Assembly (NCBI RefSeq): GCF_002803515.1
Contig: NZ_PHQX01000002.1
Coordinates: 1 to 64,000, forward strand
From: Stenotrophomonas lactitubi
GTDB taxonomy: Bacteria > Pseudomonadota > Gammaproteobacteria > Xanthomonadales > Xanthomonadaceae
Direction: 5' to 3'
DNA: 64,000 nt
A program made the position numbers and the translations under genes. Positions 13,442 to 40,516 of this stretch are shown here, piece by piece. Positions within the stretch are counted from its first letter, which is position 1. Every line of letters begins with the position of its first letter. A model generated the notes under the pieces. That model saw only the letters and a list, made by a program, of their open reading frames with translations, searched no databases and was not told the origin of the DNA.

Positions 13442-16320
<2,879 letters not shown>

Positions 16321-16430: not shown

Positions 16431-16538
16431 AGAGGCGGAAGGGCAGGCAGGGCAGGACACGCCGTGAACCCATCCATGGGGGCTCGGCCACGGCATCCAT
16501 GCCGTGGACGGTCCTGCCCTGCCTGCCCCTCCGCCTCT
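16431..16538 (-). repeat. Long-hairpin element A (covarying arms, 52-nt core)
   Basis: Arms of 28 bp (16431-16458 and 16511-16538) are complementary except for one A.C pair on the plus strand. They enclose a 52-nt core (16459-16510) starting ACGCCGTGAACCC. The core has an inner 9-bp hairpin, CCACGGCAT with ATGCCGTGG (16488-16496 and 16499-16507), and a small CCCATCCATGGG palindrome. Assigned to the minus strand because the mismatch is a G.U wobble there. Confidence 0.85.
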
Positions 16539-16702
16539 CCGACGGTTTCCTGCGGGCGCGGCCGGACCGCCCGAAAGCGGGGGTCAAAAGCTGGGTTCAT
16601 GGCTGCGGAGACTGCGCGGGTTGCAGCTTTGGTGGGTGCGGACCTTGGTCCGCACTGCTTCTGCCTTTAGAGCCAACCCTCCGCGCTCGCGGGGTGATGG
16701 GT

Positions 16703-16812
16703 GGGCGGCGGAGGGCCGGGCGGGGCAGGGCCGTGAGGCGCATGGATGCGCCGATCGAGCTTACAGGGACGTACTTGCGGCGTGCCCTGCCCCGCCCGGC
16801 CCTCCGCCGCCC
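16703..16812 (+). repeat. Long-hairpin element B, inverted orientation
   Basis: Arms of 29 bp (16703-16731 and 16784-16812) are perfectly complementary and rich in G/C. The 52-nt core (16732-16783) is related to the reverse complement of the cores in A, C and D: ACGCCG at one end, GCTCG in the middle, and an inner hairpin GGCGCAT with ATGCGCC (16737-16743 and 16746-16752). The arm sequence is unrelated to that of the other copies except in base composition. Confidence 0.85.
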
Positions 16813-16874
16813 GAGCCGACACCCAGCAGGCGCAACGCTTTCCTCACTACACCCCACCCATTCAGCAAAACCTG

Positions 16875-16902
16875 TTGATAGGAATGAAATTAGTAGTATC
16901 CT
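16875..16902 (+). promoter_or_regulatory. Candidate marR promoter with overlapping imperfect palindrome
   Basis: TTGATA (16875-16880), 16-bp spacer and TATCCT (16897-16902) in an A/T-rich island. An imperfect inverted repeat (ATTAGTAG/CTATCTATTA) overlaps the -10 region and could be a MarR-type autoregulatory operator. Transcription would begin around 16909, leaving almost no leader before the ATG at 16914. Confidence 0.45.
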
Positions 16903-16913
16903 ATCTATTACTT

Positions 16914-17369
16914 ATGGACCGACCCCTCGACGAGCGCACCGTGCTGCAGATGCAGCTCAGCTCCGGCCTGCTGTACGCAGGGCGGCAGTGGCAGCGCCTG
17001 GCCGACAGCCGGTTGGGCAGCTACGGCATCTCCACCGCCTGCACCATGCCGCTGTTGATGATCGGCCGCTCCGGCGGTGGCATCCGCCAGGTCGCGCTGG
17101 CCCAGCAGCTGGGCATGGAAGGCCCGTCGCTGGTGCGCCTGCTGGACAAGCTCTGCGCCAGTGGACTGGTCCGCCGCGAATGCGATGCCAGCGACCGCCG
17201 CGCCAACCTGCTGTGGCTGACCGAGGAAGGCCAGGCGTTGGTTCGCGAACTGGAAGATCAGTTGATCGGCCTGCGCCAGGACGTGTTCGGCGAGCTTTCC
17301 ACGGATGAACTGCACGCCGTATTGAAGGCGTGGCGCCTGCTCGCCGAGGCTGCCGACCGCATCACGTAA
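16914..17369 (+). CDS. MarR-family transcriptional regulator
   Basis: A 151-residue winged-helix repressor with the recognition region IRQVALAQQLGMEGPSLVRLLDKL followed by the wing ECDASDRRANLLWLTEEG. It is the first gene before an aromatic-acid efflux operon on the same strand and probably controls it in response to an aromatic ligand. ATG 16914 (MDRPLDERTV) is preferred; an in-frame ATG at 16884 would overlap the promoter. The gene may be nearly leaderless. Confidence 0.85.
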   Translation: MDRPLDERTVLQMQLSSGLLYAGRQWQRLADSRLGSYGISTACTMPLLMIGRSGGGIRQVALAQQLGMEGPSLVRLLDKLCASGLVRRECDASDRRANLLWLTEEGQALVRELEDQLIGLRQDVFGELSTDELHAVLKAWRLLAEAADRIT

Positions 17370-17477
17370 GCCCGCTGTCCGTGAAAACCGCCGCTGCCGT
17401 GCATGCGCCAGCGGCTTTTGCCCGTTGCCGTTGTTCTGTTCCGCCTCCCCTTCCCCATACCGCCCCTGCCCCTACCG

Positions 17478-17687
17478 ATGCCCGGTGAATTCAGTCTCCA
17501 CGGAGTGTTCGTCCCGACCCTGCTCGGGTTGATGGTGTTGGCCTATCTGGTCAACAGCGGCCTGCACGCGCTGCTGCAGCGTGCCGGCGCCTATCGCCAC
17601 GTATGGCACCCGGCGCTGTTCAACCTGGCCTTGTACGGGATCGTGCTGGGCCTGCTGTTCCACCTCCTGCGTTGGATGCAATCGTGA
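17478..17687 (+). CDS. DUF1656 small membrane protein (AaeX-like)
   Basis: A 69-residue protein with two hydrophobic helices, beginning MPGEFSLHGVFVPTLLGLMV, which is typical of DUF1656/AaeX. These accompany HlyD-type and FUSC-type subunits of p-hydroxybenzoate efflux pumps; the exact role is unknown. I start at 17478 because the family begins here; an upstream in-frame ATG (17403) adds a Pro-rich stretch not seen in the family. Its stop overlaps the next GTG start by 4 bp. Confidence 0.8.
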   Translation: MPGEFSLHGVFVPTLLGLMVLAYLVNSGLHALLQRAGAYRHVWHPALFNLALYGIVLGLLFHLLRWMQS

Positions 17688-18601
17688 ACAAGATCGTGAA
17701 GAAGACCCTGCCGGTGCTGCTCACCTGCGCAGCCGTGATCGTCGCCCTGCTGGTGCTGCGCCAGCTGTGGGTCTACTACATGGATGAGCCGTGGACGCGC
17801 GATGCGCACGTCGGCGCCGATGTGGTGCAGGTGGCGCCGGATGTGTCCGGCCTGGTCGAAACGGTGCAGGTGGCCGACAACCAGGCGGTGAAGAAGGGCG
17901 ACCTGCTGTTCGTGATCGATCGGGCGCGCTACCGCATCGCGCTGGAACAGAGCCGCGCCAGCCTGGCCGAACGGCAGGCATCGGTCGCGCAGCTGCGCCG
18001 CGAGATCGGCCGCGACCGCAGCCTGCAGGATCTGGTCGCCGCCGAGGATGCCGAAGTGCGCCGGGCCAAGCTGCAGGCTGCGCAGGCCGCACTGGCCACT
18101 GCGCAGGCCGCGGTTGACCTGGCCGAACTCAACCTGGCCCGCACCGAAGTGCGCGCGCCGGCTGATGGCCGGGTCAACGACCGCACCATGCGCGTGGGCG
18201 ATTACGTGGTGGCCGGCAAGCCGGTGCTGGCGCTGCTGGATACCGGTTCGTTCCGCATTGATGGCTACTTCGAGGAAACCCGCCTGCGCGGCGTGGCCCC
18301 GGGGCAGCGTGTGGACATCCGCCTGATGGGCGAGGACACCCCCCTGCACGGCCATGTCGAAAGCATCGCCGCCGGCATCGAAGATCGCTACCGCAGCAAC
18401 GGCAGCACCCTGCTGCCGAACGTGACCCCGGCCTTCGACTGGGTGCGGCTGGCGCAGCGCATTCCGGTGCGCATCGCCATCGACGAGGTGCCTGCCGGCG
18501 TGGAACTGATCGCCGGGCGCACCGCCACGGTGACCGTGGACACCGGCCGCCACGTGCAGAACAAGAAGGCCGGCGCTGCGCCGACACAGGCGGGCCTGTG
18601 A
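17684..18601 (+). CDS. HlyD-family periplasmic adaptor (AaeA/EmrA-like)
   Basis: A 305-residue membrane-fusion protein. One N-terminal transmembrane helix (LPVLLTCAAVIVALLVLRQLW) is followed by the lipoyl half-motif (DAHVGADVVQVAPDVSGLVETV), a helical hairpin rich in Ala/Gln/Glu, and the second half-motif (VRAPADGRVNDRTMRVGDYV). It would link the inner-membrane FUSC pump to the outer-membrane channel encoded next. The start is GTG overlapping aaeX, and its end overlaps the next gene by 4 bp. Confidence 0.9.
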   Translation: MNKIVKKTLPVLLTCAAVIVALLVLRQLWVYYMDEPWTRDAHVGADVVQVAPDVSGLVETVQVADNQAVKKGDLLFVIDRARYRIALEQSRASLAERQASVAQLRREIGRDRSLQDLVAAEDAEVRRAKLQAAQAALATAQAAVDLAELNLARTEVRAPADGRVNDRTMRVGDYVVAGKPVLALLDTGSFRIDGYFEETRLRGVAPGQRVDIRLMGEDTPLHGHVESIAAGIEDRYRSNGSTLLPNVTPAFDWVRLAQRIPVRIAIDEVPAGVELIAGRTATVTVDTGRHVQNKKAGAAPTQAGL

Positions 18602-20058
18602 ACGCCGCCCTGCCCCGCCTTGGCCTGATCGTCGCCCTGGCCAGCCTGGCCGCGTGCAGGACCGTCGGCCCGGATTACGCGCTGCCCGAGGGCTCGGCGT
18701 TCAAGCGGCCGCAGGCCAATGCGGCCTTCATCGACACGCAGAACCCGCAGGTGGCCGCCAACCAGGCGCTGCCGGCACGCTGGTGGTCGCTGTACAACGA
18801 CCCGGTGCTGGATGGGCTGATTACCCAGGCGCTGCGCGACAACGTCGAACTGAAGGCCGCCGATGCGCACCTGCGCCGCGCCGCTGCCGTGTACGAGCAG
18901 GCGATGGATGCCGGTGGCTTCGAGTACGAGGCCGAGGCCGGGGTCAGCCGCGCACAGTTGTCGGCCGAATCGTTCCTGCAGGAACACGAACTGCCAGTGA
19001 TCAACCTGGCCGACGGCAAGTTCGCGGTCAGCTACCAGTTCGACCTGTTCGGCAAGCTCAAGCGCGGTGCCGAAGCGGCGCGCGCCGACGAACAGTCGGT
19101 GGCCGCCGCACGTGACCTGGCCCAGGTGAGTGTGGTGGCCGAGGTGGCCGACAGCTACCTGGAGATCTGCCACGCCAACCATGAGCTGCATGTGGCCGAG
19201 CACTCGCTGCAGCTGCAGCAGCGCAGCCGCTCGGTCACCCAGCGGTTGATCAGCGCAGGCCGCGGCACGCCGCCGGAGCTGGCCCGCGCCAATGCCCAGG
19301 TCGCGCTGCTGGAAGCGGCATTGCCTCCGCTGCAGGCGCAGCGTTCGGCGGCCGCCTATTCGCTGGCCGCCCTGCTCGGGCAGACCCCCGGCCAGCTGCC
19401 GGCCGGGGTGATCGACTGCGCCGATGCGCCGACCCTGGCGCAGCCATTGCCGGTCGGTGATGGCCGTGCGCTGCTGCAGCGCCGCCCGGACGTGCGCCAG
19501 GCCGAACGCAAGCTGGCCTCGGCCACGGCACGGATTGGTGTGGCCACCGCCGAGCTGTATCCGGACATCCGCCTGGGTGCCTCGGTGGGCGCTGCGGGCC
19601 TGCTGGAGGACTTCGGCACGCCGATGACCCAGCAGTGGTCGATCGGCCCGCTGATTTCGTGGACGCTGCCGTCCTCGGGTACCCACGCCCGCATCCACGC
19701 CGCCGAAGCCGGTGCCGATGCGGCGCTGGCCGAGTTCGACCACACGGTGCTGCAGGCGCTGCGCGAAACCCAGACCGCGCTGGATCGTTATGCGCAGGAC
19801 CTACGCCGGCTGCAGGCGCTGCGCATTGCGCAGGAGCAGGCTGCGCTGGCCGCCGAGCAGAACCGCAGGCTGTACCAGGGCGGCCGCACGCCGTACCTGT
19901 CCAGCCTGGATGCCGACCGCAGCCTGGCCACCAGCGATGCCACCCTGGCCGCGGCCGAAGCGCAGGTCTCGCGTGACCAGATCCATCTGTTCCTGGTGCT
20001 GGGTGGTGGCTGGCAGGCAACCGTCGCCGCAGCCGGCACCCCGACCGCAGCGAAGTAA
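18598..20058 (+). CDS. NodT-family outer-membrane efflux lipoprotein
   Basis: A 486-residue TolC-like outer-membrane factor. A lipoprotein signal ends at LASLAAC, followed by TVGPDYALPE, a hallmark of NodT/OprM channels. The body has paired outer-membrane-efflux repeats (QFDLFGKLKRGAEAARAD and, in the second half, IRLGASVGAAGLLEDF). It provides the exit duct for the tripartite pump and starts with GTG overlapping the adaptor gene. Confidence 0.9.
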   Translation: MNAALPRLGLIVALASLAACRTVGPDYALPEGSAFKRPQANAAFIDTQNPQVAANQALPARWWSLYNDPVLDGLITQALRDNVELKAADAHLRRAAAVYEQAMDAGGFEYEAEAGVSRAQLSAESFLQEHELPVINLADGKFAVSYQFDLFGKLKRGAEAARADEQSVAAARDLAQVSVVAEVADSYLEICHANHELHVAEHSLQLQQRSRSVTQRLISAGRGTPPELARANAQVALLEAALPPLQAQRSAAAYSLAALLGQTPGQLPAGVIDCADAPTLAQPLPVGDGRALLQRRPDVRQAERKLASATARIGVATAELYPDIRLGASVGAAGLLEDFGTPMTQQWSIGPLISWTLPSSGTHARIHAAEAGADAALAEFDHTVLQALRETQTALDRYAQDLRRLQALRIAQEQAALAAEQNRRLYQGGRTPYLSSLDADRSLATSDATLAAAEAQVSRDQIHLFLVLGGGWQATVAAAGTPTAAK

Positions 20059-20061
20059 GCC

Positions 20062-22101
20062 ATGAACGCGCTGACCGACCGCCAGGCCTGGCTGTTTTCG
20101 ATCAAGACCTACCTGGCAGCGATCGTCGCGCTGTACATCGCCATGGCCGGCAACCTGTCGCGCCCGTACTGGGCGATGGGCACGGTGTACATCGTCAGCC
20201 AGCCGCTGCTGGGCCCGACCCGGGCCAAGGGCGTGTACCGCATCCTCGGCACCCTGGCCGCCGGCCTGGCCACCCTGCTGATGCTGCCCGCGCTGGTGGA
20301 AACACCCCTGGTGCTGAGTGCGGCGATGTCGATCTGGCTGGCCGGCTGCCTGTTCATGGCCCTGCTCAACCGTGGGCCGCGCGGCTACGCGTTCCTGCTG
20401 GCCGGCTACACCACCGCCTTCATCGGCTTCCCGGCGGTGACCTCGCCGGAAACCATCTTCGACACGGTGGTGGCACGCAGCGAGGAGATCATCCTCGGCA
20501 CGGTGGTGGCGGTGCTGTTTGCTTCGCTGCTGTTCCCGGCCTCGGTGCGGCCGATGCTGGGCGCGCGCATCGGCAACTGGATGGAGGACGCGGCGCAGTG
20601 GTGCCGGCAGATCCTCGAGCGCGGCCGTGCGCATGCGCCGCGCAACCGGTTGGCCGCCGACCTGGTGCAGTTCGAAGCGCTGATCGAGTTCCTGCGCCGC
20701 GATGATCCACGCCATGCCGGGTCGGCGGTGTCGATGGAGCGCCTGCGCGAGCGCATGCTGCTGCTGTTGCCGGTGCTGTCCTCGATCGCAGACCGCCTGA
20801 GCGCGCTGCGCAGCGATGGAGAGACACTGCCCGAGGGCCTGCCGACGCTGGTCGATGACATCCACGACTGGATCGACACGCCGTCCAGTGCCAGCGACTA
20901 CGCGCGCCTGCGCGCACGCATCAGTGCGCTGAAGCCACAGGTGGACCGCGACCTGCAGCACCTGCAGCTGGCCAGCCTGCTGCTGCGCCTGGAAGAGCTG
21001 GTGGACCTGTGGCAGGACTGCCGCACCCTGCAGCACGCGATCGACCAGGGCACCGCGCCACTGGACCGTGCGCACTACCGCATCCGCACCGAACGCACCG
21101 CCACCGACAAGCACGTCGACTACGGCATGGCGCTGTTCTCCGCGCTCAGTGCCGGCGTGGCGCTGATGAGCTACTGCGTGCTGTGGATCGGCCTGGGCTG
21201 GGAGGGCGGTGGCAACGGCGCGATGATGGCCGCGGTGACCGCCGCGTTCTTTGCTGCACAGGATGACCCGGCGCCGAGCATGGTCTCTTTCCTGGTGTGG
21301 GCGATGGTGGCGTCACTGGTGGCCGGTGTGTACCTGTTTGGTGTGTTCCCCGCCGTGCACGACTTCGGGCTGCTGGCGCTGGTGCTGGCGGTGGTGTTCC
21401 TGCCGTTGGGCCTGCTGCTGCACCACCCGAAGAGCGCGCTGTTCGCGCTGCCGCTGACGGTCAACCTGGCGGCACTGCTGAGCCTGCAGAACACCTACAG
21501 TGCCAACGTCCAGACCTTCGCCAACTCGTCGATCGCGATGTTCATCGGCATTGGTTTTGCCGTGGTGATGACGCGGTTGTTCCGCTCGGTGGGTGCCGAA
21601 TGGACCGCGCGCCGGCTGGTACGGCAGGGCTGGACCACCCTGGCCGAAGCCGCCGAAGGCCGCGGCCAGCAGGATCGCCAGCGCTTCGCCGCACGCATGC
21701 TGGATCTGCTCGGCCTGCTGGCACCGCGCCTGGCAGCGACCCCGGAAGGCAGCGACATCGCCTCGGTGGACATGCTCAACGAAGCCCGCATCGGCCTGAA
21801 CATCCTGCAGCTGCGCCGCGCACGACTGGAACTGCCCGAGCGCAGCCGCGAGGCCGTCGAGCACATCCTGGAGGAAGTGGCCGCGCACTACCGTCGGCAG
21901 ATCGCCGCGCGCAAACCGATCGCCGCTGCCGAGGCGCTGCGCGAGCGGCTGGACACGTCCTTGGGGCGGGTCGGCAGCGTGGCGGCGTGCAAGGCCCGCG
22001 ATGAGGCGCTGATGGGCCTGGTCGGCCTGCGGTTTGCACTGTTCCCGGAAGCGAAGGCGCTGGCGCTGGGGTTGGCGGACGCCGCAGCGCCGTCCGTCTG
22101 A
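20062..22101 (+). CDS. FUSC-family inner-membrane efflux transporter (AaeB-like)
   Basis: A 679-residue protein with two clusters of hydrophobic helices (residues about 15-165 and 360-510) separated and followed by long soluble helical regions. This duplicated layout is that of fusaric-acid-resistance/AaeB pumps, which expel aromatic carboxylic acids. Recognisable sequences are RPYWAMGTVYIVSQPLLGPTRAKG and its echo WEGGGNGAMMAAVTAAFFAAQDDP. It closes the operon marR-aaeX-HlyD-OMF-FUSC, three bases after the channel gene. The actual substrate is not shown by sequence. Confidence 0.9.
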   Translation: MNALTDRQAWLFSIKTYLAAIVALYIAMAGNLSRPYWAMGTVYIVSQPLLGPTRAKGVYRILGTLAAGLATLLMLPALVETPLVLSAAMSIWLAGCLFMALLNRGPRGYAFLLAGYTTAFIGFPAVTSPETIFDTVVARSEEIILGTVVAVLFASLLFPASVRPMLGARIGNWMEDAAQWCRQILERGRAHAPRNRLAADLVQFEALIEFLRRDDPRHAGSAVSMERLRERMLLLLPVLSSIADRLSALRSDGETLPEGLPTLVDDIHDWIDTPSSASDYARLRARISALKPQVDRDLQHLQLASLLLRLEELVDLWQDCRTLQHAIDQGTAPLDRAHYRIRTERTATDKHVDYGMALFSALSAGVALMSYCVLWIGLGWEGGGNGAMMAAVTAAFFAAQDDPAPSMVSFLVWAMVASLVAGVYLFGVFPAVHDFGLLALVLAVVFLPLGLLLHHPKSALFALPLTVNLAALLSLQNTYSANVQTFANSSIAMFIGIGFAVVMTRLFRSVGAEWTARRLVRQGWTTLAEAAEGRGQQDRQRFAARMLDLLGLLAPRLAATPEGSDIASVDMLNEARIGLNILQLRRARLELPERSREAVEHILEEVAAHYRRQIAARKPIAAAEALRERLDTSLGRVGSVAACKARDEALMGLVGLRFALFPEAKALALGLADAAAPSV

Positions 22102-22109
22102 TGCGATCC

Positions 22110-22210
22110 GCCGGGCATGGCCCGGCGCTACCCTGTCCGCCTGATACGAATCGCCGGGCATGCCCCGGCGCACCCCTTATCCTCCGGTAGCGCCGGGCCA
22201 TGCCCGGCGG
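22110..22210. repeat. Three SMAG-type palindromes in a row
   Basis: Hairpins at 22110-22131 (ends CTAC), 22153-22173 (same stem, degenerate CAC end) and 22187-22210 (begins GTAG, opposite orientation). All share the stem GCCGGGC/GCCCGGC. They separate the efflux operon from the next gene. Confidence 0.85.
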
Positions 22211-22238
22211 CTTTTCACCCAGACAACAGGACGCTCCA

Positions 22239-22637
22239 ATGAGTTACGACATGATGGTGTTCGAGGCCAGCGTGGCCCCGCGTGACGCGGCGGCCTTCAT
22301 CGCCTGGTTCGAGAAGCAGGCGCAGTGGGGCGAGCGCCACGAGTATGACGACCCGGCGGTCAGCAGCCCGGCGTTGCAGGCGTGGTTTGCGGAGATGGCA
22401 CAGGAATTTCCGCCGATGAACGGCCCGTTGAGCAACGACGATGATGATCGCGCCGAAGTGACCGAGTACAGCATCGGCCGCGACGTGATCTATGGCGCGT
22501 TCGCGTATTCGGTGGCCGAGCGCGCGCATGGGCTGGTGCAGGACCTGGCCGAGAAGCACGGCGTGGGGTTCTTCGATGTGAGTGCTGATGAAGCGGCGAT
22601 CGTGTATCCGGATGGGCTGGTGTTGATGCCGGAGTAG
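22239..22637 (+). CDS. Small acidic protein of unknown function
   Basis: A 132-residue acidic, soluble protein with no signal peptide or membrane segment. I do not recognise the family. It has a conserved-looking N-terminus (MSYDMMVFEASVAPRD), an acidic loop with four Asp in a row (NDDDDR) and an Ala-rich C-terminal half ending DGLVLMPE. The start at 22239 follows ACAGGACG at suitable spacing. Flanked by repeats on both sides; codon use is like the neighbouring genes. The compact acidic form resembles immunity proteins, but no toxin gene is present. Confidence 0.7.
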   Translation: MSYDMMVFEASVAPRDAAAFIAWFEKQAQWGERHEYDDPAVSSPALQAWFAEMAQEFPPMNGPLSNDDDDRAEVTEYSIGRDVIYGAFAYSVAERAHGLVQDLAEKHGVGFFDVSADEAAIVYPDGLVLMPE

Positions 22638-22644
22638 GTTTGGC

Positions 22645-22700
22645 GGCAGGTCTGCGCCCTGCACCTGCCGAATCAACGTCAACGTCAACGTCAACGTCAA
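22645..22700. repeat. Upstream module of element C: hairpin plus TCAACG tandem array
   Basis: A 25-nt hairpin (GGCAGGT with ACCTGCC around CTGCGCCCTGC) at 22645-22669, followed by four copies of the hexamer TCAACG (22673-22696). The same hairpin and a shortened, mutated array occur at the same place upstream of element D, so this is part of a larger composite repeat. Confidence 0.75.
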
Positions 22701-22720
22701 ATGCTGGGCTACTGGGGGAT

Positions 22721-22822
22721 GGCGGGGTGGGTCCGGTTGCGGGGGACGCCGTGAACCCATCCCTGGGGGCTTGGCCGCGGCATCCATGCCGCGGACACCC
22801 CCGCAACCGAACCCACCCCGCC
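22721..22822 (-). repeat. Long-hairpin element C
   Basis: Arms of 25 bp (22721-22745 and 22798-22822) complementary except for one C.A pair. The 52-nt core (22746-22797) is nearly the same as that of element A. Its inner hairpin is CCGCGGCAT with ATGCCGCGG, i.e. the A-to-G change relative to element A is matched by a T-to-C change in the partner strand. Confidence 0.85.
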
Positions 22823-22868
22823 TTCGACAGGTTCCCGCGATCTGTCGGAATTGCATGGCCTGCTTCTG

Positions 22869-22968
22869 GTGGATGTCGACCTTGGTCGACACGGTAGATC
22901 CACGCCATGCGTGGATGAACGCCAAAATGATCGAAGCGCGCTTTTGTAGAGTCGAGCCATGCTCGACT
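22869..22968. repeat. Three SMAG-type palindromes
   Basis: 22869-22892 (GTGGATGTCGACCTTGGTCG...), 22894-22917 (GTAGATCCACGCCATGCGTG...) and 22946-22968 (GTAGAGTCGAGCCATGCTCG...). The middle one is identical in its stem to the copy at 40541-40564 beside element D. Confidence 0.8.
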
Positions 22969-23016
22969 GACGCGAAAGGATCATGGAGGCAGTGTTCCCG
23001 CTCACCAGCGGAAGCG

Positions 23017-23559
23017 CTATTTGTCCCGTGTTACCTCTGCGAAGAAGATGTTGACTGCCTCGTCCATCTCGTCGGACATGATCTCGGTGTGCAGTCTGGC
23101 CATCGGGGTGTGGCCGTGCGCGATAGCGATGGCTGCAAAGAATGCTGAAGTTTTCCATGCTTCCTGCGGCGTCGCGACTAGCATTGCAGCATGTTTCCCC
23201 ATGCGCTGAATGGCCTGCGAATACTCCGGCTCCAATCCAGCAGGAAGCTCCATGCCTTGGTGGCATCGCAGCGTTTCGATGGATTGTGCGAGGGAAATGA
23301 ACTGCCAATCGTTTGAGTCAGCGTCCATTGGCAATGCGTTGACGATATGCGGCACAGCCGCAAACGAAGCGCTGTAGACGTCCCCTTGATGGCACAGGCT
23401 GCTCCACAGCTCGTGCCAGGTGTCCTCGATCGGATCGTCTTCGGATCTTTCGTTTTTCGGGATACTGAGATTGGCCAGCAGCTCCGGAATGTCATCCGCA
23501 GCACCATATGCGTGCTGCAGTTCGGCCCAGCGGGGATCATCCAAGGCGATTAGGGCCAT
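23017..23559 (-). CDS. Unknown protein, possibly HEAT-like/immunity-type
   Basis: A 180-residue soluble protein. The segment HELWSSLCHQGDVYSASFAAVPHIV resembles a motif (W...L.HQG..Y.AS.AAVP) common in small helical-repeat proteins of actinobacteria and in some polymorphic-toxin immunity proteins; this is a pattern match, not a family assignment. Base composition looks less G/C-rich than neighbouring genes, which suggests recent acquisition. I start at ATG 23559 (MALIALDDPRW); a longer frame to 23619 has no family-like sequence. No toxin gene is adjacent. Confidence 0.65.
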   Translation of the reverse strand: MALIALDDPRWAELQHAYGAADDIPELLANLSIPKNERSEDDPIEDTWHELWSSLCHQGDVYSASFAAVPHIVNALPMDADSNDWQFISLAQSIETLRCHQGMELPAGLEPEYSQAIQRMGKHAAMLVATPQEAWKTSAFFAAIAIAHGHTPMARLHTEIMSDEMDEAVNIFFAEVTRDK

Positions 23560-23656
23560 GTGCCGGTTCCTGTGTCGTTGGTAGCAACGCAGGATAGGTA
23601 GCGCCGACGGCGTCATCAAAGGGCATATGCGACAGAAGCGCCTCCGAGATCTGGAT

Positions 23657-23696
23657 GGGGTCAGAGCCCTTTCCCGTTGGGAAAGGGATCCGACCC
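23657..23696. repeat. GGGTC-type hairpin repeat, copy 1
   Basis: An imperfect palindrome GGGGTCAGAGCCCTTTCCC, short loop, GGGAAAGGGATCCGACCC. It belongs to a family with four further copies between 50.0 and 53.8 kb. It lies just past the 3' end of recD and upstream of the unknown minus-strand gene's promoter. Confidence 0.75.
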
Positions 23697-23700
23697 ATGA

Positions 23701-33573: not shown

Positions 33574-34322
33574 TGCCGTTCGTGCAAGCCACCCGTTCGC
33601 TGGGCCGTGCCGGTCTGTTCTCGCTGACCGTGCTGCGCGGTTCGCTGCCGACCCGTGATTTCCTGGCCGAGCTGACCCGCGAGATCTACAAGATCGGTGC
33701 GCGCTCGCTGCCGATCATCGCCGTGGGCGGCGCCTTCGTCGGCCTGGTGCTGACCCTGCAGGGCTACCGCACGCTGACCACCTTCGGTGCGGCCGACGCG
33801 CTGTCCACCCTGCTCGGTCTGTCTTTGTACCGCGAGCTGGCACCGGTGCTGACCGCGCTGTTGTTCATCGGCCGCGCCGGCAGCTCGATCGCCGCCGAAC
33901 TGGGCCTGATGCGCGCCACCGACCAGATCAAGGCGCTGGAACTGATGGCCATCGACCCGGTGGCCAAGGCCGTGGCGCCGCGCTTCTGGGCGGCGGTACT
34001 GACCGTGCCGCTGCTGACCGGCATCTTCTGTTCGCTGGCAATCAGCGCCAGCTATTTCGAAGCAGTGCACGTACTGGGCCTGGACAACGGCGTGTTCTGG
34101 TCGGCGCTGCGCAACAGCGTGGACTTCTGGGACGACTTCGGCGTGGCGATGCTGAAGTCGGCGATCTTCGGTGGCACCGCCGCACTGGTTGCCGCCTATG
34201 TCGGTTTCCACGCCGAACCGACCATCGAAGGCACCTCCGTCGCCACCACCCGTGCGGTGGTCAACGCTTCGCTGCTGGTGCTGATGTTCAACTTCGTGCT
34301 GTCGGCAATGTTGTTCACCTAA
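33573..34322 (+). CDS. mlaE: Mla lipid transport permease MlaE
   Basis: A 249-residue permease with five or six hydrophobic helices and the MlaE signatures VGGAFVGLVLTLQGYRTL, LYRELAPVLTALLFIGRAGSSIAAELG and the conserved MRATDQIKALELMAIDP. It pairs with MlaF and holds the MlaD ring in the inner membrane. Confidence 0.94.
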   Translation: MPFVQATRSLGRAGLFSLTVLRGSLPTRDFLAELTREIYKIGARSLPIIAVGGAFVGLVLTLQGYRTLTTFGAADALSTLLGLSLYRELAPVLTALLFIGRAGSSIAAELGLMRATDQIKALELMAIDPVAKAVAPRFWAAVLTVPLLTGIFCSLAISASYFEAVHVLGLDNGVFWSALRNSVDFWDDFGVAMLKSAIFGGTAALVAAYVGFHAEPTIEGTSVATTRAVVNASLLVLMFNFVLSAMLFT

Positions 34323-34380
34323 CCCCTCCATCGGCGGTGCGCATCGGCGCGCGGCCACCACGACTGATCAGGTAATCCAC

Positions 34381-34905
34381 ATGGCCATCCGCGGTCCCAG
34401 ACTCGAATTCTCCGTCGGCGCTTTCCTGCTGCTGGCCCTGGCCTCGCTGATGGTGCTGGCCGTCGCCTCGACCAACCAGCGCTGGAGCTGGGGTGGCGAA
34501 GGCTATGAACTCAAGGCCCGCTTCTCCCAGGTCGGCCAGCTGCGCAAGCAGGCGCCGGTGAAGATCGGCGGCGTCACCGTCGGCCAGGTCGCTTCCATCG
34601 AACTGGACCCGGTGAAGTTCGAATCGATCGTGACCCTGCGCATGGACAGCAAGGTCAAGGACCTGCCGGCCGACACCTCCGCCGGCATCTTCACCAGCGG
34701 TTTGCTTGGCGAGAGCTATATCGGTCTGCAGCCCGGCGGTGATCCGGACGTGCTCAAGCCCGGTGAGGAAATCGTGTTCACCCAGCCGGCCGTGGACCTG
34801 CTGCAGCTGGTCGGCAAGTACATGTTCAGTGGCGGCGCCGGTGGTGGCGCTGCTCAGAAACCCAACGATGGCGAGCAGTCGCCTGCAACGGAACCGCAAC
34901 CATGA
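34381..34905 (+). CDS. mlaD: MCE-domain protein MlaD
   Basis: A 174-residue protein with one N-terminal anchor (FSVGAFLLLALASLMVLAVAS) followed by a single MCE domain (YELKARFSQVGQLRKQAPVKIGGVTVGQV) and a short C-terminal helix with a Gly-rich tail. MlaD forms the hexameric periplasmic lipid channel above MlaE. It sits 58 bp after mlaE and overlaps mlaC by 4 bp. Confidence 0.93.
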   Translation: MAIRGPRLEFSVGAFLLLALASLMVLAVASTNQRWSWGGEGYELKARFSQVGQLRKQAPVKIGGVTVGQVASIELDPVKFESIVTLRMDSKVKDLPADTSAGIFTSGLLGESYIGLQPGGDPDVLKPGEEIVFTQPAVDLLQLVGKYMFSGGAGGGAAQKPNDGEQSPATEPQP

Positions 34906-35564
34906 AGATGAAACTGATCCCGGCCCTGCTCGCCTCGTCGCTGCTGCTGGCCACCCCGTTCCTGGCCCAGGCGCAGGCCGCCCCCGCCGCTGCCGCCGCC
35001 CCCCAGGGCCAGGCCGGCAAGGTGGTGATCGACGCCAGCAGCCGCATCATGTCGACCCTGCAGCAGCGCCGTGCTGAGTTCACCAGCAACCCGGCCAGCC
35101 TGCGCAGCTACATCGACAGCGAACTGACCCGTACCTTCGACCGCGACTATGCCGCGCGCCTGGTGCTGGGCCCGCACGCCCGCGGCGCTTCGGATGCCGA
35201 CATCAAACTGTTCGCCGATGCGATGGCCGACAGCCTGATGCAGCGTTATGGCTCGACCCTGCTCAACATCCAAGGCAAGCCGAGCTTCCGCCTGAAGGGC
35301 GAGAGCCCGCTGCCGGGCAACCGCGGCGTGCGCGTGGCCACCGAACTGGTGCGCGCCGCCAACGAGCCGACGCCGGTTGAATACTGGATGCGCAACGTCA
35401 ACGGCCAGTGGAAGATCTTCGACGTGAACATCGAAGGCATCTCCTACGTGCAGACCTTCCGCAACCAGTTCGATGCCCCGCTGCGACAGAAGGGCATCAA
35501 GCAGGTAGCCAACGATCTGCGCAGCGGCAGCATGCAGGCCGGACCGGCCGGCAATGGCAAATAA
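34902..35564 (+). CDS. mlaC: Periplasmic phospholipid shuttle MlaC
   Basis: A 220-residue secreted protein with signal peptide MKMKLIPALLASSLLLATPFLAQAQA-like region cleaved after AQA. The mature part contains RAEFTSNPASLRSYIDSELTRTFDRDYAARLVLG and the C-terminal VNGQWKIFDVNIEGISYVQTFRNQF, both typical of MlaC, which carries phospholipid between MlaA at the outer membrane and MlaFEDB. An Ala-rich stretch follows the signal. Confidence 0.93.
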   Translation: MKMKLIPALLASSLLLATPFLAQAQAAPAAAAAPQGQAGKVVIDASSRIMSTLQQRRAEFTSNPASLRSYIDSELTRTFDRDYAARLVLGPHARGASDADIKLFADAMADSLMQRYGSTLLNIQGKPSFRLKGESPLPGNRGVRVATELVRAANEPTPVEYWMRNVNGQWKIFDVNIEGISYVQTFRNQFDAPLRQKGIKQVANDLRSGSMQAGPAGNGK

Positions 35565-35865
35565 GGCGCTGGCGCTGCTGGAAGGTGACACCCTGCGCCT
35601 GCGCGGGGTGCTCGACCGTGCAGCGGTGATCGCGCTGTGGCCGCAGCTGCAGGCCCTGCCGGCGCAGCTGTCGCGGCTGGAACTGGCGGAGGTCGAGCGC
35701 GTGGACAGCGCCGGCCTGGCGTTGCTGGCCGAGCTGGCCGCGCGCGCGCGCCAGGGCGGTCATCCGCTGACGATCTCCGGCGCCCCCGCCGGCTACAACG
35801 AACTGAGCGCGGCCTACCGGCTGTCGCCCGACCTGGACTTCAACGCTACTTCTGCTGCGAGCTGA
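35554..35865 (+). CDS. mlaB: STAS-domain subunit MlaB
   Basis: A 103-residue cytoplasmic STAS protein with VERVDSAGLALLAELAARA around the conserved Ser. In the Mla complex it binds MlaF and stabilises it. It overlaps mlaC by 11 bp and is followed one base later by mlaA, so it is clearly inside the operon. Confidence 0.9.
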   Translation: MANKALALLEGDTLRLRGVLDRAAVIALWPQLQALPAQLSRLELAEVERVDSAGLALLAELAARARQGGHPLTISGAPAGYNELSAAYRLSPDLDFNATSAAS

Positions 35866-35866
35866 C

Positions 35867-36871
35867 ATGAACGTCGTGCGCGTTTTCCCTCTGATCCTCC
35901 TGGCCGCTGCGCTCAGCGCCTGCGCCGGCAAGCCGGCACGCAGCGACGCGCCGGTGGCCGATACCGTGGTTCCGCCGACTGCTGCAGCACCTGCCGCAGC
36001 CACTGCTGCTGACACCGAGCCGGCCAGCCAGCCGACGCAGGCCGACACGCCGCCCGCTGCGGCCGCCGTGGACACCGGCAGCCGTGCCCCGACAACCGAT
36101 GCCGCCACCGACGCGGCGGCGACCGCACCGGGCGGCGACAACGACTTCGATGCGCTGTACGGCACCAGTGACAACAGCCGCAGCGCTACCGCCTACGACC
36201 CGTGGGAACCGTTCAACCGCAAGGTGCACGGCTTCAACAACGCCGTCGACCGCGGTATCGCCCGCCCGTTGGCCACCGCCTATACCCACGTGGTGCCGCG
36301 CTTTGCACGTACCGGCGTAAGCAACTTCTTCAGCAACCTGCGTGCGCCGCTGACCATCACCAACCAGCTGCTGCAGGGCCGACCGGCCGATGCGTGGGAC
36401 AGCCTGGGCCGGTTCCTGATGAACAGCACGCTGGGCATTGGTGGCCTGTTCGACCCGGCCAGCAAGGCGATGGTGCCGCGTCGCAACGAGGACTTCGGGC
36501 AGACCCTGGGTGCGTGGGGCTGGCGTCGTTCGCGTTACGTGGAACTGCCGTTCTTCGGCCCGCGTACCGTGCGTGATGTGTTCGGCCTGGCCGGTGACAT
36601 CCCGTTGTCGCCGATCCGCCGCATCGAAAGCGACAAGTACCGCATCGGCCTGCAGGGCCTGCAGCTGGTCGACACCCGTGCACAGCTGCTGGCGATCGAC
36701 GACCTGCGCGATACCGCGGTGGACGAATACGCCCTGGTCCGCGATGCCTGGATGCAGCGCCGCAACTACCAGATCGAGAACGATCTGCGCAGCAAGCGCG
36801 AGCGTGGCAGCGACGATGCGAACTCGCCGATCCCGGTCGATGCGATGCCGATGCCGCAGTGGACCAACTGA
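35867..36871 (+). CDS. mlaA: Outer-membrane lipoprotein MlaA (VacJ)
   Basis: A 334-residue lipoprotein with lipobox LSACAG near residue 20. A low-complexity Ala/Thr/Pro linker (residues about 25-90) precedes the VacJ domain, which begins DPWEPFNRKVHGFNNAVDR and contains RAPLTITNQLLQGRP and the conserved DIPLSPIRRIES region. MlaA removes phospholipid from the outer leaflet. In E. coli this gene lies far from the other mla genes; here it closes the operon. Confidence 0.93.
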   Translation: MNVVRVFPLILLAAALSACAGKPARSDAPVADTVVPPTAAAPAAATAADTEPASQPTQADTPPAAAAVDTGSRAPTTDAATDAAATAPGGDNDFDALYGTSDNSRSATAYDPWEPFNRKVHGFNNAVDRGIARPLATAYTHVVPRFARTGVSNFFSNLRAPLTITNQLLQGRPADAWDSLGRFLMNSTLGIGGLFDPASKAMVPRRNEDFGQTLGAWGWRRSRYVELPFFGPRTVRDVFGLAGDIPLSPIRRIESDKYRIGLQGLQLVDTRAQLLAIDDLRDTAVDEYALVRDAWMQRRNYQIENDLRSKRERGSDDANSPIPVDAMPMPQWTN

Positions 36872-36893
36872 CCGCTGCCGGCACCGCATGAAA

Positions 36894-36917
36894 AACCCCG
36901 CCTCGGCGGGGTTTTTT
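36894..36917 (+). terminator. Rho-independent terminator of the mla operon
   Basis: Stem AACCCCGCC/GGCGGGGTT with a short loop, followed by TTTTTT, 20 bp after the mlaA stop. Confidence 0.9.
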
Positions 36918-36943
36918 GTTTACTGGCATCCACCTACCTTCCG

Positions 36944-36968
36944 GTAGGTGCCAACCTTGGTTGGCACG
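36944..36968. repeat. SMAG-type palindrome
   Basis: Begins GTAG, stem GTGCCAACC/GGTTGGCAC. Lies between the mla terminator and the 3' end of the convergent glutathione peroxidase gene. Confidence 0.85.
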
Positions 36969-36974
36969 TCGTCT

Positions 36975-37520
36975 TCAGGCCGCCAGCGCCGCCTCGACCG
37001 CTTCGCGCAGGCGCGCATCATCGGCGGCAACGTCCGGGGCGAAGCGGGCGATGACCTTGCCATCGCGGCCGACCAGGAACTTCTCGAAATTCCACAGCAC
37101 CGCCGGTGCCGGGTGGATCGGAATCTCCTTGCTGGCCAGGCGCTCGCGCAGCGGGCCTTCGCCGATCGCCTGCGGCTGTGCGGCGGTCAGCTGCTGGTAC
37201 AGCGGGTGGGTGTCTTCACCGGCCACGCTGATCTTGGCGAACACCGGGAAGCTCACGTCGTAGGTCAGCTGGCAGAACTGCTGGATCTCCGCCTCGCTGC
37301 CCGGTTCCTGGCCGAGGAAGTTGTTGGCCGGGAAGCCCAGCACTTCCAGGCCCTGCGCGTGCTTTTCCGCGTACAGCGCCTGCAGGCCTTCGTACTGCGG
37401 GGTCAGGCCGCACTTGGACGCCACGTTGACCAGCAGCAGTACCTTGCCCTGGTAGTCGGCAAGCGAGGACGACTGGCCGTCGATGGTGGTGAGGGAAACA
37501 TCCTGGATCGAGGTACTCAC
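36975..37520 (-). CDS. Glutathione peroxidase family protein
   Basis: A 181-residue thiol peroxidase of the GPx/BtuE family that reduces peroxides. The catalytic Cys is in LLLVNVASKCGLTPQYEGLQ, with the conserved GFPANNFLGQEPGS and WNFEKFLVGRDGKV motifs carrying Gln and Trp. The start is GTG at 37520 with GGAG seven bases upstream; longer frames enter a SMAG repeat. Confidence 0.93.
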   Translation of the reverse strand: MSTSIQDVSLTTIDGQSSSLADYQGKVLLLVNVASKCGLTPQYEGLQALYAEKHAQGLEVLGFPANNFLGQEPGSEAEIQQFCQLTYDVSFPVFAKISVAGEDTHPLYQQLTAAQPQAIGEGPLRERLASKEIPIHPAPAVLWNFEKFLVGRDGKVIARFAPDVAADDARLREAVEAALAA

Positions 37521-37578
37521 GCGGGGGCTCCGGCTACGGCTGGGAAAGGCCCACCAGCATACCGCCGCATGCGCTGTT

Positions 37579-37637
37579 GTAGAGCCGAGCCCATGCTCGG
37601 CTGATGCCACGGTAGCCGAGCATGGGCTCGGCTCTAC
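37579..37637. repeat. Mirror pair of SMAG palindromes
   Basis: Two copies in opposite orientation (37579-37602 and 37612-37637) with the stem GCCGAGC/GCTCGGC. Together they form one larger 59-bp palindrome with GTAG and CTAC at the two outer ends, i.e. a dimeric SMAG, between the peroxidase and a lipoprotein gene. Confidence 0.85.
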
Positions 37638-37646
37638 AGGACATCC

Positions 37647-38048
37647 TCAATCCACGCAGATCGTGCCCTGCGCCTTGCCACCGTCGATGCGCTGGCGGCA
37701 GCCGAAGTTCTGGCTGACATCACGCTGGCAGGTGCCGGTCGCCACAACGCCGGCAGCGACCTCTCCCGTGGCCAGGCACTGTCCGCTGCAGTCGCTCTTG
37801 TTGCCGCACGACCTGCCAGCGTCGGCATAGGGAATCACGCACTGCACCCGTTGCAGGCGGCCCAACGGCTGCAGCGTACCGCCCGCTGCGCGGCAGTCCA
37901 CATCGCGTGCTTCTTCATAGGCTGCAGCAGCTTCGGGGCTGTCGGCCGCCGTGGATGCCGTGCCTGCATCTTCGCTGGCCGGTGGCGCACTGCTGCAGGC
38001 GGCAAGCAGCGCGCCCAGGGCAAAGCTGGCAAGGAATCGGAGGCGCAT
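37647..38048 (-). CDS. Cys-rich lipoprotein of unknown function
   Basis: A 133-residue protein with a lipoprotein signal (LGALLAACSS) followed by a Ser/Ala/Glu-rich linker and a C-terminal domain with about eight Cys residues (CRAAGG, CVIPYADAGRSC, DCSGQC, TGTCQRD, FGCRQR, TICVD), which suggests disulfide-bonded folding in the periplasm. ATG 38048 gives the signal peptide directly. I do not recognise a named family. Confidence 0.8.
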   Translation of the reverse strand: MRLRFLASFALGALLAACSSAPPASEDAGTASTAADSPEAAAAYEEARDVDCRAAGGTLQPLGRLQRVQCVIPYADAGRSCGNKSDCSGQCLATGEVAAGVVATGTCQRDVSQNFGCRQRIDGGKAQGTICVD

Positions 38049-38108
38049 GGCGGTACCTGAAGGGTGTGGACGGCGCCAGCATACGCACCCGCCCATGCAG
38101 GTGGCGTG

Positions 38109-39677
38109 TCAGCCGGCGTTGCCGTCGTCCTCTCCGTCGGTGGAGGTCAACTGCTGCATCGGATCGGGGGTCAGCTCAGGGGGCAACGCGCGCTTTGACT
38201 TGCTGCCCAGTTCGGCAAGCCGGCGGGCACGGCTGATGGCCGACTGCGGCGAATCGATCAAGCGGTTGCGTGCGTCGGCGTAAGCCTTTCCTGCATCATC
38301 AAGCTTCTTGCCCATGGCATTGAAGTCCTGCAGGAATCCAGTCAGGGCGTCCAGCACCAGTCCACCGGCTTCACTGATCTTCAATGCCTGCTTCTGCACC
38401 TTGTCACGTGTCCACAGTCGCTCGGCCACCCTCAACAGGGCCATCAGCGTATTGGGCGAAGCGAACACCACGCGGTTGTCGAAGGCATACGCCTGCAGTG
38501 CACCATCCGCGCCCAGCGCCGCCGACAGCGCGCCTTCGATGGGAACGAAAGCGATGGTGATATCCAGGGTCTCGCTGCCAAGAGCCTTCGGATAGTTCTT
38601 TTCGCCCAGATCCTTGACGTGCTGGCGCAGCGCCACCGCATGGCGGCGCAATGCATCTTCGGACTGTTCCGGCGTGGCGGCATTCATCGCCTCCTGCCAG
38701 GCGATCAGGTTGACCTTGCTGTCGATCACCACGCTGCGCTCATCGGGGAACTGCACCACCACGTCCGGCCGCAGGCGCGCGCCCTCATCATCCACGGCGT
38801 GCTTCTGCCGCTGGTAGTGAACGCCCTCCTCCAGGCCTGAGCCACGCAGCACGTTGTCGAGCATCAGCTCGCCCCAGTCACCGCGCACCTTGGCGCTGCC
38901 TTTCAGCGCATTGGTCAGCGCCGAGGCCTGTGCAGCCATGTCCTGGTTGAGCGTCTTCAGTTCACCCACCGCGCCAAGCAGGCTGGCACGCTGCCTCGCC
39001 TCTTCCCCGTACAGCGTGTCGACCCGGTTGCGGAAATCCCCCAGCCTGTCGGCAAAGGGTTTGAGCAGCCCTTCGATATCCGCGCGCGACTGCACCGTTG
39101 CCTGGCGCACGTTCTTTTCGAACTGTTGTCCGCGTTCGTCGAACACCTTGCCCGCCAGTTCGGCGAAGGCGCCGGAGAGCTTTTCCTTGGCAGTATCCAG
39201 ATAGCTGCGCAGCTCGGCACTGGCGCGTTCGGAATGCTGCAGGTTGGCCAGCGCGCGAGCATGTTCGCCATGCAGCTGCTGGTAGCGCTGCTGCGCGTGT
39301 TGCAGCTCCTTGCTGGACTCGGCCAGACCGGCCCGTACCTGCGCCAGGGCAGCTTCGCGCTCGGCCAACATCGCTTCACGACTGGACGCCAACGCGGCCT
39401 CCCGCTCCACGCGTGCGGTCAGGGTAGTGACGAGCTGGGCGTGCTGCAGGCTTCGGCCACGCTCGCTTTCCAGCTCTGCCAGCAACGCTTCCAGCCGACC
39501 TCGCAGTTGACCGGCGTCAACCAGGGCCAGGCGATGCTGCTCGCGTTCGGTAACCAGCTGCTGCTGTGCTTCAGCAGCGGGGGCGCTGTTGGATGCCCGA
39601 CGCCACAGCAGTACCAGCACCAGCAACGTCGCCAGCAGCAGCACCACGGCGACAATCATGAGGACTTCGATGTTCAT
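38109..39677 (-). CDS. rmuC: DNA recombination protein RmuC
   Basis: A 522-residue protein with one N-terminal membrane helix (VLMIVAVVLLLATLLVLVLLW), a long coiled coil to about residue 220, then the RmuC domain with nuclease-like motifs (GDWGELMLDNVLRGSGLEEGVHY, RPDVVVQFPDERSVVIDSKVNL). RmuC limits DNA inversions and rearrangements. ATG 39677 is chosen because the transmembrane helix follows directly. Confidence 0.93.
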   Translation of the reverse strand: MNIEVLMIVAVVLLLATLLVLVLLWRRASNSAPAAEAQQQLVTEREQHRLALVDAGQLRGRLEALLAELESERGRSLQHAQLVTTLTARVEREAALASSREAMLAEREAALAQVRAGLAESSKELQHAQQRYQQLHGEHARALANLQHSERASAELRSYLDTAKEKLSGAFAELAGKVFDERGQQFEKNVRQATVQSRADIEGLLKPFADRLGDFRNRVDTLYGEEARQRASLLGAVGELKTLNQDMAAQASALTNALKGSAKVRGDWGELMLDNVLRGSGLEEGVHYQRQKHAVDDEGARLRPDVVVQFPDERSVVIDSKVNLIAWQEAMNAATPEQSEDALRRHAVALRQHVKDLGEKNYPKALGSETLDITIAFVPIEGALSAALGADGALQAYAFDNRVVFASPNTLMALLRVAERLWTRDKVQKQALKISEAGGLVLDALTGFLQDFNAMGKKLDDAGKAYADARNRLIDSPQSAISRARRLAELGSKSKRALPPELTPDPMQQLTSTDGEDDGNAG

Positions 39678-39732
39678 GCGACCAGTGTAGCCCCGCTGCG
39701 CTAGCCTTGGTCGGACCACATCGGACCCGCCC

Positions 39733-40338
39733 ATGCTTGTTCTCTACGGAAAGCCCACCTCGATCAACGTGCGCAAAGTGCTGTGGCTGTGCGCCGAACT
39801 CGATCTCCCGCTTACGCATGAACCAACCCCCGCGCCGGACCTGCTGGCCACGCTGAATCCGAGCCGGCAGGTGCCGGCGCTACGCGACGGCGACTTCGTG
39901 CTGTGGGAGTCCAACAGCATCTGCCGCTACCTGGCCGCACGCCAGGGCCGCGATGACCTGCTGCCCGCCACGGCACAGGGCCGCGCCAAGGTCGAGCAGT
40001 GGATGGACTGGCAGGCCACCGACCTCAACAGCGCCTGGCGCCACGTGTTCATGGCCCGCGTGCGCCAGCACCCCGACTTCGCGGACGACGCGCGCGCGGA
40101 GGCCAGCCTGACGCACTGGAATCATCTGATGACACTGCTCGATGCACAGCTGGCGACGACCGATGGCTACGTGGTGGGCAACACCTTCACCCTGGCCGAC
40201 ATCGTGCTCGGCCTGTCCACCCAGCGCTGGCGCAGCACACCGGGAAACAAACCGGCGCTGCCCCACGTGGAAGCCTGGTTCGAGCGCCTGCGCCCCCGCC
40301 CGGGCTTCGCTAAACATGTGGACAACGGCGTGGCGTAA
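39733..40338 (+). CDS. Glutathione S-transferase family protein
   Basis: A 201-residue GST. The thioredoxin-like N-terminal domain (LVLYGKPTSINVRKVLWLCAELDLP) has Ser in the usual catalytic position, and VPALRDGDFVLWESNSICRYLA holds the cis-Pro and glutathione-binding ES pair. The C-terminal helical domain contains FTLADIVLGLSTQRW. Divergent from rmuC with a 55-bp gap. Substrate unknown. Confidence 0.88.
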   Translation: MLVLYGKPTSINVRKVLWLCAELDLPLTHEPTPAPDLLATLNPSRQVPALRDGDFVLWESNSICRYLAARQGRDDLLPATAQGRAKVEQWMDWQATDLNSAWRHVFMARVRQHPDFADDARAEASLTHWNHLMTLLDAQLATTDGYVVGNTFTLADIVLGLSTQRWRSTPGNKPALPHVEAWFERLRPRPGFAKHVDNGVA

Positions 40339-40348
40339 GGGAGTTTCC

Positions 40349-40394
40349 GGCAGGGCTGCGCCCTGCACCTGCAGAGGCAACGTCAACATCGAAA
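40349..40394. repeat. Upstream module of element D
   Basis: Hairpin GGCAGGGCTGCGCCCTGCAC... (40349-40373) followed by a decayed array (AACGTCAACATCGAA). It matches the module upstream of element C in sequence and relative position. Confidence 0.7.
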
Positions 40395-40412
40395 GGCAGC
40401 ATTCGGTGGGAT

Positions 40413-40516
40413 GGCGGGGTGGCATGGATTTGCAGGACACGCCGTAAACCCATCCATGGGGGCTCGTAGGCGCCATCCATGGCGCCTGCGGTCCCGCAAA
40501 CCCATGCCACCCCGCC
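40413..40516 (-). repeat. Long-hairpin element D
   Basis: Arms of 26 bp (40413-40438 and 40491-40516) complementary except for two A.C pairs. The 52-nt core (40439-40490) matches elements A and C in ACGCCGTaAACCCATCCATG; its inner hairpin has a different but self-complementary stem, AGGCGCCAT with ATGGCGCCT (40468-40476 and 40479-40487). It sits between convergent GST and oxidoreductase genes, followed by a SMAG palindrome at 40541-40564. Confidence 0.85.

Follow-up and report, generated by a model that had tools for sequence, protein, structure and literature searches.

In the first 64,000 nucleotides of contig NZ_PHQX01000002.1 of Stenotrophomonas lactitubi (RefSeq assembly GCF_002803515.1), hereafter the window, four hairpin elements, A to D, are copies of one dispersed, mobile extragenic family that resembles the repetitive extragenic palindromic (REP) sequences. 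Each element carries two hairpins on one junction, and both hairpin loops contain CANGGANG, the consensus signature of CsrA/RsmA-binding RNA. We tentatively favour the reading that this REP-like mobile family displays a double CsrA site, where both transcription and CsrA binding are what we infer from sequence features, and we regard this as a good possibility, somewhat short of a probable one.

The pattern C-ANGGAN-G, in which N is free, was present in both hexaloops in all 117 copies from the S. lactitubi genome, in 40 of 45 model matches from family loci and in 26 of 30 from class loci. These counts come from copies found by covariance model, none of which was fetched through the loop pattern; loci L128-L249 were retrieved with a pattern that fixes the loops, and their loop statistics are biased and were excluded as evidence. 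Loop 1 read AUGGAU in 115/117 copies and AAGGAU in the other two, and loop 2 read ANGGAY in 116/117 and AGGGAA in one, the base preceding GGA being variable. We take C-ANGGAN-G loops to correspond to the RsmE/CsrA consensus, with GGA in a hairpin loop fitting (A/U)CANGGANG(U/A). The base before GGA is free in the CsrA consensus. CsrA is a dimer with two RNA-binding faces, which fits two loops displayed on one junction. The S. lactitubi genome has one csrA match, of standard sequence including L4 and R44. A variant with a longer stem 2 (family f160) retains both loops in all nine loci shown, and locus L252 holds a full-length copy of B in which one GGA is lost. The available text of PMC9788540 gives ANGGA as a CsrA motif.

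Structure of the element

On the folded strand, arms of about 28 bp surround a 52-nt core that forms a three-way junction with two hairpins. Along this strand the first arm is followed by hairpin 1, a single A that never varies, hairpin 2, which contains a 5-nt bulge, two further bases and the second arm; the base of hairpin 1 consists of two pairs that alternate between C-G and U-A. The initial covariance model (R1) was built from the four window copies and paired CCG with CGG across the junction. An alignment of 117 copies gave the pairs 12-13/36-37 and 39-41/59-61, which were used in the refined model (R2) employed for the wider genome surveys.

Among 109 distinct copies, standard pairs occupied 97.0% of cells, and the covariation score was 0.598 compared with 0.049-0.105 when the partners were slid by 1-3 columns. 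None of 500 shuffles reached any of the five measures used. Two-sided changes were found in 23 of the 26 pairs, bearing out the stem covariation that a first-pass annotation of the window had noticed from the letters alone, while the invariant pairs were both loop-closing C-G pairs and pair 39/61. The same annotation had claimed a fixed core of 52 nt. This is exact in A to D (counted inside the innermost arm pair, which occupies model columns 11 and 64), but three of the 117 local copies lack one base, in two cases from within the core. In other genomes most cores, though not all, have 52 nt, with model matches of 73 to 76 nt beside 74, and the match spans 79 nt in the f160 variant; the variable core length that the annotation had counted against its own claim is therefore partly, if only slightly, present outside this genome.

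One transition in a Watson-Crick pair can yield either G-U or A-C, so an excess of G-U marks the strand carrying GGA as the folded strand. Walking outward along the arms, G-U outnumbered A-C by 101:24 in the 117 local copies and by 144:34 in 75 matches from other genomes (set A4, whose counts are not fully independent, some matches being the same element in overlapping loci such as L076 and L095 and two being weak at 28 and 31 bits). The ratio was 51:23 in 41 copies from five distant genomes, five of these copies being also in A4, and 28:12 in the modelled pairs of alignment A3, six of the A-C lying at one column pair. Selection on a folded nucleic acid, as proposed at first pass, is thus supported by strong two-sided covariation, by more G-U than A-C on one strand, by many copies and by a near-constant core.

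The G-U excess alone does not separate RNA from single-stranded DNA. The strongest rival, and a serious one, is a single-stranded DNA hairpin recognised by a transposase (IS200/IS605-like or other), in which the loops would be recognition marks and the likeness to CsrA sites coincidental. The low fraction of G-U pairs suits this alternative, which we judge rather unlikely from all the evidence given here and below; no transposase reading known to us accounts for two identical CANGGANG loops.

The four elements in the window

Over 74 columns the minus-strand sequences of elements A, C and D form a gapless alignment with the plus-strand sequence of B, which makes B an inverted copy of the same element. 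The positions and arms of the four hairpins were confirmed as first annotated (Table 1). The inversion of B, the status of A and B as a typical outward-facing pair, CANGGANG in both loops and the breadth of the family had escaped that annotation. RNA folding z-scores against 200 dinucleotide shuffles were -9.5 for A (minus), -9.1 for B (plus), -7.9 for C (minus) and -8.5 for D (minus), and no shuffle folded as well as any of the four. The A-B pair sits between divergent predicted genes at 15709-16320 (minus) and 16914-17369 (plus), and the palindrome in its spacer is one that we take to be SMAG/REP-like. An (AACGTC)n array lies at 22670-22705, 3' of element C on the folded strand; AACGTC/GCAACA-like runs come after many copies of the element.

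Table 1 Coordinates of the hairpin elements and their loops in the window.
Feature	Position	Strand	Details
Element A	16431..16538	minus (folded strand)	28-bp arms, 52-nt core; R1 match of 98.4 bits at 16448-16521
A, hairpin 1 hexaloop	16495..16500	minus	AUGGAU
A, hairpin 2 hexaloop	16472..16477	minus	AUGGAU
A-B spacer	16539..16702	none	Inside outward-facing pair; contains palindrome GGTGGGTGCGGACCTTGGTCCGCAC
Element B	16703..16812	plus	29-bp arms; opposite orientation to A; 89.6 bits at 16721-16794
B, hairpin 1 hexaloop	16742..16747	plus	AUGGAU
B, hairpin 2 hexaloop	16765..16770	plus	AGGGAC, within UACAGGGACGUA
Element C	22721..22822	minus	25-bp arms; 93.2 bits at 22735-22808
C, hairpin 1 hexaloop	22782..22787	minus	AUGGAU
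C, hairpin 2 hexaloop	22759..22764	minus	AGGGAU
Element D	40413..40516	minus	26-bp arms; 92.9 bits at 40428-40501
D, hairpin 1 hexaloop	40475..40480	minus	AUGGAU
D, hairpin 2 hexaloop	40452..40457	minus	AUGGAU

Copy number, orientation and gene context

The four-copy covariance model, which the first-pass annotation had suggested building, found at least 150 strong copies in the 4.87-Mb genome (weakest E 7e-10), and matches were found in many relatives. A second set holds 117 matches at E up to 0.01 (weakest 66 bits) in 862 kb, made up of the window and 40 stretches chosen as match-rich. The best candidates per genome were scored (150 in the S. lactitubi genome, 119 in the genus, 62 in the family, 17 in the class and 16 in the phylum); the copy numbers are therefore minimum values, and genomes with few copies may have gone undetected.

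In the larger set, 80 copies form 40 neighbouring pairs within 1.5 kb, all of them minus-plus, and 35 of these pairs are spaced 177-235 bp between model ends. In the set of 117, 96 copies form 48 pairs within 700 bp, again all minus-plus, and 21 are single. Neighbouring pairs elsewhere are minus-plus in 30 of 42 cases (17/22 in Xanthomonadaceae and 13/20 in other named genomes). Locus L151:3123-3734 is an exception to the inverted-pair rule, with four direct tandem copies about 180 bp apart. Inverted pairing in 48 of 48 cases, a trait of REPINs, also speaks for the single-stranded DNA hairpin.

All but one of the 117 copies lie outside predicted genes, the gene contexts being taken from a codon-usage open reading frame (ORF) caller and not from annotation. 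With the folded strand as reference, 39 copies are in convergent, 27 in sense tandem, 31 in antisense tandem and 19 in divergent context. Sense and antisense counts between tandem genes were 27/31 in the S. lactitubi genome, 14/12 in Xanthomonadaceae and 21/27 in other named genomes. We rejected a fixed-orientation signal of the 3' untranslated region (3'-UTR) because none of these three sets has a sense bias; the lack of orientation bias to genes also accords with the single-stranded DNA hairpin. An own sigma-70 promoter was rejected likewise. In the S. lactitubi genome the upstream sigma-70 score was higher than in the downstream and antisense controls (p 0.001 for the latter) yet no higher than in shuffled upstream sequence, and in other gammaproteobacteria it was lower than shuffled. 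In other, unrelated genera, copies lie in gaps between trp, rpe or urease (ure) genes (L128, L161 and L232; identities judged by eye), of which the trp and ure genes look co-transcribed.

The strong hairpins lie close to the ends of genes, often in convergent or within-cluster gaps, and in the S. lactitubi genome the facing stop codon is typically 30-130 bp away. Such an element might act as a bidirectional terminator or a 3'-end mRNA stabiliser like some REP elements, with loops that have no role. We find this improbable: conservation is far higher in the loop and junction bases than in the arms, which a plain terminator would not need, and no T-run follows the 3' arm, T making up 5% of the first five bases in the 117 copies. 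A hairpin without a T-run also led us to reject an intrinsic terminator.

Arm divergence and turnover at orthologous sites

The arms stay self-complementary although their sequence changes far more quickly than that of the core. Across five distant genomes (10, 10, 11, 7 and 3 copies), copy-to-copy identity was 83-92% in the cores and 34-63% in the outer 20 nt of the arms, compared with 26-34% for shuffled arms and 23-33% for 3' flanks, while the outer arms were 93-100% self-paired. Among 114 copies of the S. lactitubi genome, core identity was 79%, outer-arm identity 55% (shuffled 43%) and outer-arm self-pairing 96%. The earlier observation that arms differ between copies while pairing within each copy was seen again here, and it extends to the same site in different species. 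Arm-pair differences at the orthologous A site of ten genomes were two-sided in 273 and one-sided in 53 cases (all pairwise comparisons); at the B site of seven genomes they were two-sided in 70 and one-sided in 29. Arm and core types switch as blocks.

These patterns could also arise without selection on the arms. Complementarity would then be maintained by conversion between copies or by template switching where palindromes are imperfect, and only the core would be functional, an explanation compatible with either loop reading and one that we consider possible, if doubtful. The far greater divergence of outer arms than of cores, the preponderance of two-sided changes, the change of arm and core in blocks and the rarity of intermediates (55 UA, 53 CG and 1 UG at pair 12/37) all speak for it. 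Since palindrome correction is strand-symmetric, the G-U excess in the three arm counts demands an additional strand-specific constraint. A mechanism that regenerates arms, the second option raised at first pass, may operate instead of, or beside, selection. No clean comparison with an empty site was found for a distant genome, which bears on the idea that arms are copied from the target site.

Empty and occupied sites were compared between related genomes, as had been proposed at first pass, and both presence and absence were seen at the A-B, C and D sites. At the A-B site, at least one model match was found in 16 of 30 loci, and the others have shorter spacers and no match. Most of the low-scoring A-B matches (31-51 bits) are interrupted by a second insert and one is cut by a contig end. 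By eye, a structured insert, GGGTGAGGGCG...CCCCGGAGGGG, occurs at the same loop 2 point of the A-B site in L256, L257, L262, L264 and L266, and a different insert with further GGA hairpins occurs in loop 1 of hairpin 1 in L258, L360 and L368; such inserts look like nested insertion into loops or loop expansion.

Elements at the D and C sites of other species were recognised by eye. Among the 30 D-site loci, one related genome, whose flanks are 92-93% identical, carries a different copy in the opposite orientation. Two more have a single opposite-facing copy, one has an outward-facing pair, fourteen are empty, eleven do not align, and the remaining one is that of S. lactitubi. In locus L339 at this site, a G run followed by a C run occupies the possible place of a partner hairpin; sequencing or assembly may have failed there because the hairpin is strong. 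The C site is occupied in some genomes and empty in others. Such appearance, loss and flipping at orthologous sites is the behaviour of a mobile repeat, and the turnover is also in line with the single-stranded DNA hairpin.

Search for a mobilising enzyme

The S. lactitubi genome has five Y1_Tnp genes (L280-L284), and no model match at E up to 10 lies within 1.5 kb of any of them, a point against the single-stranded DNA hairpin. Each is flanked by its own type of inverted repeat (GGGGTCAG, GTGCCGACC, GTAGCGCC, GTAGAGCC and GTAGATCC). The element was therefore rejected as a terminal inverted repeat (TIR) of a Y1 transposase in this genome, where any mobilising enzyme is probably of a different kind. 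Nor did a recurring transposase emerge among the genes between spaced copies in 13 loci, where translations were judged by eye without family searches, and this likewise tells against the transposase alternative. A composite transposon with an internal gene was rejected because the genes between the spaced copies at these loci look like ordinary metabolic ones or, in viral contigs, like phage genes.

Distribution across genomes

The family is found in many gammaproteobacteria, whose genomes often hold more than a hundred copies, and its distribution is patchy. R2 matched 31 of 41 genomes in the genus (ten had no match and two had one), 17 of 79 genomes and 13 of 53 genera in the family, and 47 of 274 genomes and 41 of 221 genera in the class; in a phylum sample of unstated class make-up, all 19 matching genomes out of 299 belonged to this same class. 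A pattern scan of named genomes gave at least 119 stretches. The genera among the matches listed include Stenotrophomonas, Xanthomonas, Shewanella, Marinobacter, Alteromonas, Microbulbifer, Idiomarina, Moritella, Methylotuvimicrobium and Alcanivorax. The longer-stem-2 variant of family f160 (genomes of 6.0-6.7 Mb) gave 9 to 42 matches in three genomes of one genus and 3 in another.

Viral contigs yielded 3 stretches by exact pattern, and plasmids no match to the A core at BLAST sensitivity; phage or plasmid cargo was rejected on these grounds. The viral contigs with the element (L247, L248 and L249) resemble prophage ends and may include host DNA.

Comparison with known repeats and RNAs

As stated at first pass, the element belongs to no named family that we could find. 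No Rfam 15 family reached its gathering score over the window, including any of CsrB/CsrC or RsmX/Y/Z type, and a search of the region surrounding A and B at E up to 10 gave 59 sub-threshold matches, largely microRNA precursors, with Ysr224 at 35.3 bits (gathering 70). We found no description of the hairpin family in an open-access paper library, subscription journals and supplements lying outside the search.

CsrB/CsrC and the RsmX/Y/Z decoys carry GGA in hairpin loops, with more than one site per RNA. The hairpin element would be functionally like them if CsrA binds it; however, they are single genes with promoter and terminator, and the element is a dispersed repeat with neither. A further system for comparison is RsmU of Xanthomonas campestris, a 3'-UTR-derived RNA that, in the available text, binds RsmA (PMC7694677); by its description there, it is a single locus with a terminator, unlike the dispersed hairpin family.

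REP, REPIN and SMAG sequences are described, in the available text, as high-copy extragenic palindromes that often form inverted pairs or alternating arrays and turn over between species (Di Nocera 2013, PMC3733652). The hairpin family is likewise high-copy, extragenic, palindromic, arranged in inverted pairs and subject to turnover, and in these respects behaves like REP. REP, REPIN and SMAG repeats differ in being 20-40 bp long with a GTAG end and a RAYT gene, whereas the hairpin element measures about 100-110 bp, contains a junction core of 52 nt and has no adjoining Y1 gene in the S. lactitubi genome. Inspection by eye of the arms and flanks of the 117 copies showed no conspicuous GTAG end. 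The view that the element is not a SMAG repeat thus holds: SMAG repeats adjoin it, and its structure is different.

Also among the closest known repeats are the TIRs that flank two RAYT-like genes, called TIRYT genes, of S. maltophilia K279a (ORFs 1152 and 4509). In the S. lactitubi genome, the palindromes on either side of the Y1 gene at L280 are of the GGGGTCAG type, in keeping with the GGGGWSAS motif in the available text of the TIRYT paper, and are not the hairpin element. R178 of Pseudomonas fluorescens, as far as its available description goes, is a 101-bp intergenic repeat with internal inverted repeats, present in 18, 28 and 9 copies in three strains (PMC2718517). By this description it could be the longer-stem-2 variant of f160; the accessible part of that paper names no link to CsrA.

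Proposed role and implications

Several observations weigh against the double CsrA site. CsrA (PF02599) is found in 43 of 47 element-positive and 192 of 227 element-negative genomes and does not separate carriers, and one element-positive genome (G272, 98% completeness) has no CsrA match. There is no sense bias between same-direction genes (62 sense and 70 antisense over the three sets), nor any promoter enrichment upstream over shuffled upstream sequence. The G-U excess is lower in the 41 copies from five distant genomes, and a single-stranded DNA hairpin is also expected to produce such an excess, though more weakly. Finally, G-U makes up only a few percent of pairs, a share that is low for RNA.

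Under the double-CsrA-site reading, read-through transcription would copy the folded strand, and the two loops might bind the two RNA-binding faces of a CsrA/RsmA dimer. Each transcribed copy would then be a small two-site CsrA ligand, acting as a decoy or a tether. With pairs that face outward, transcription through a pair from either side would yield an RNA that holds one copy in the binding orientation. The arms would present the loops and may resist nucleases; with such a role, the arm sequence would be free while selection, probably together with palindrome correction or conversion, preserves its pairing. In its fullest form, which we consider rather unlikely, the family might be a movable, distributed CsrA sponge, or an element using CsrA for its own propagation, with hundreds of two-site ligands per genome across Gammaproteobacteria and arms rewritten at each locus with complementarity kept.

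If the loops do bind CsrA, there would be hundreds of potential CsrA sites per genome outside the known decoy RNAs, and CsrA titration would have to be rethought in Stenotrophomonas, Xanthomonas, Shewanella, Marinobacter and their relatives. A mobile repeat would then be the carrier of a protein-binding RNA motif. Should CsrA play no part, the family would still make palindrome maintenance and repeat mobility directly testable, being a structured repeat that is class-wide, whose core is nearly constant, whose arms change freely but stay complementary and for which no transposase is visible.

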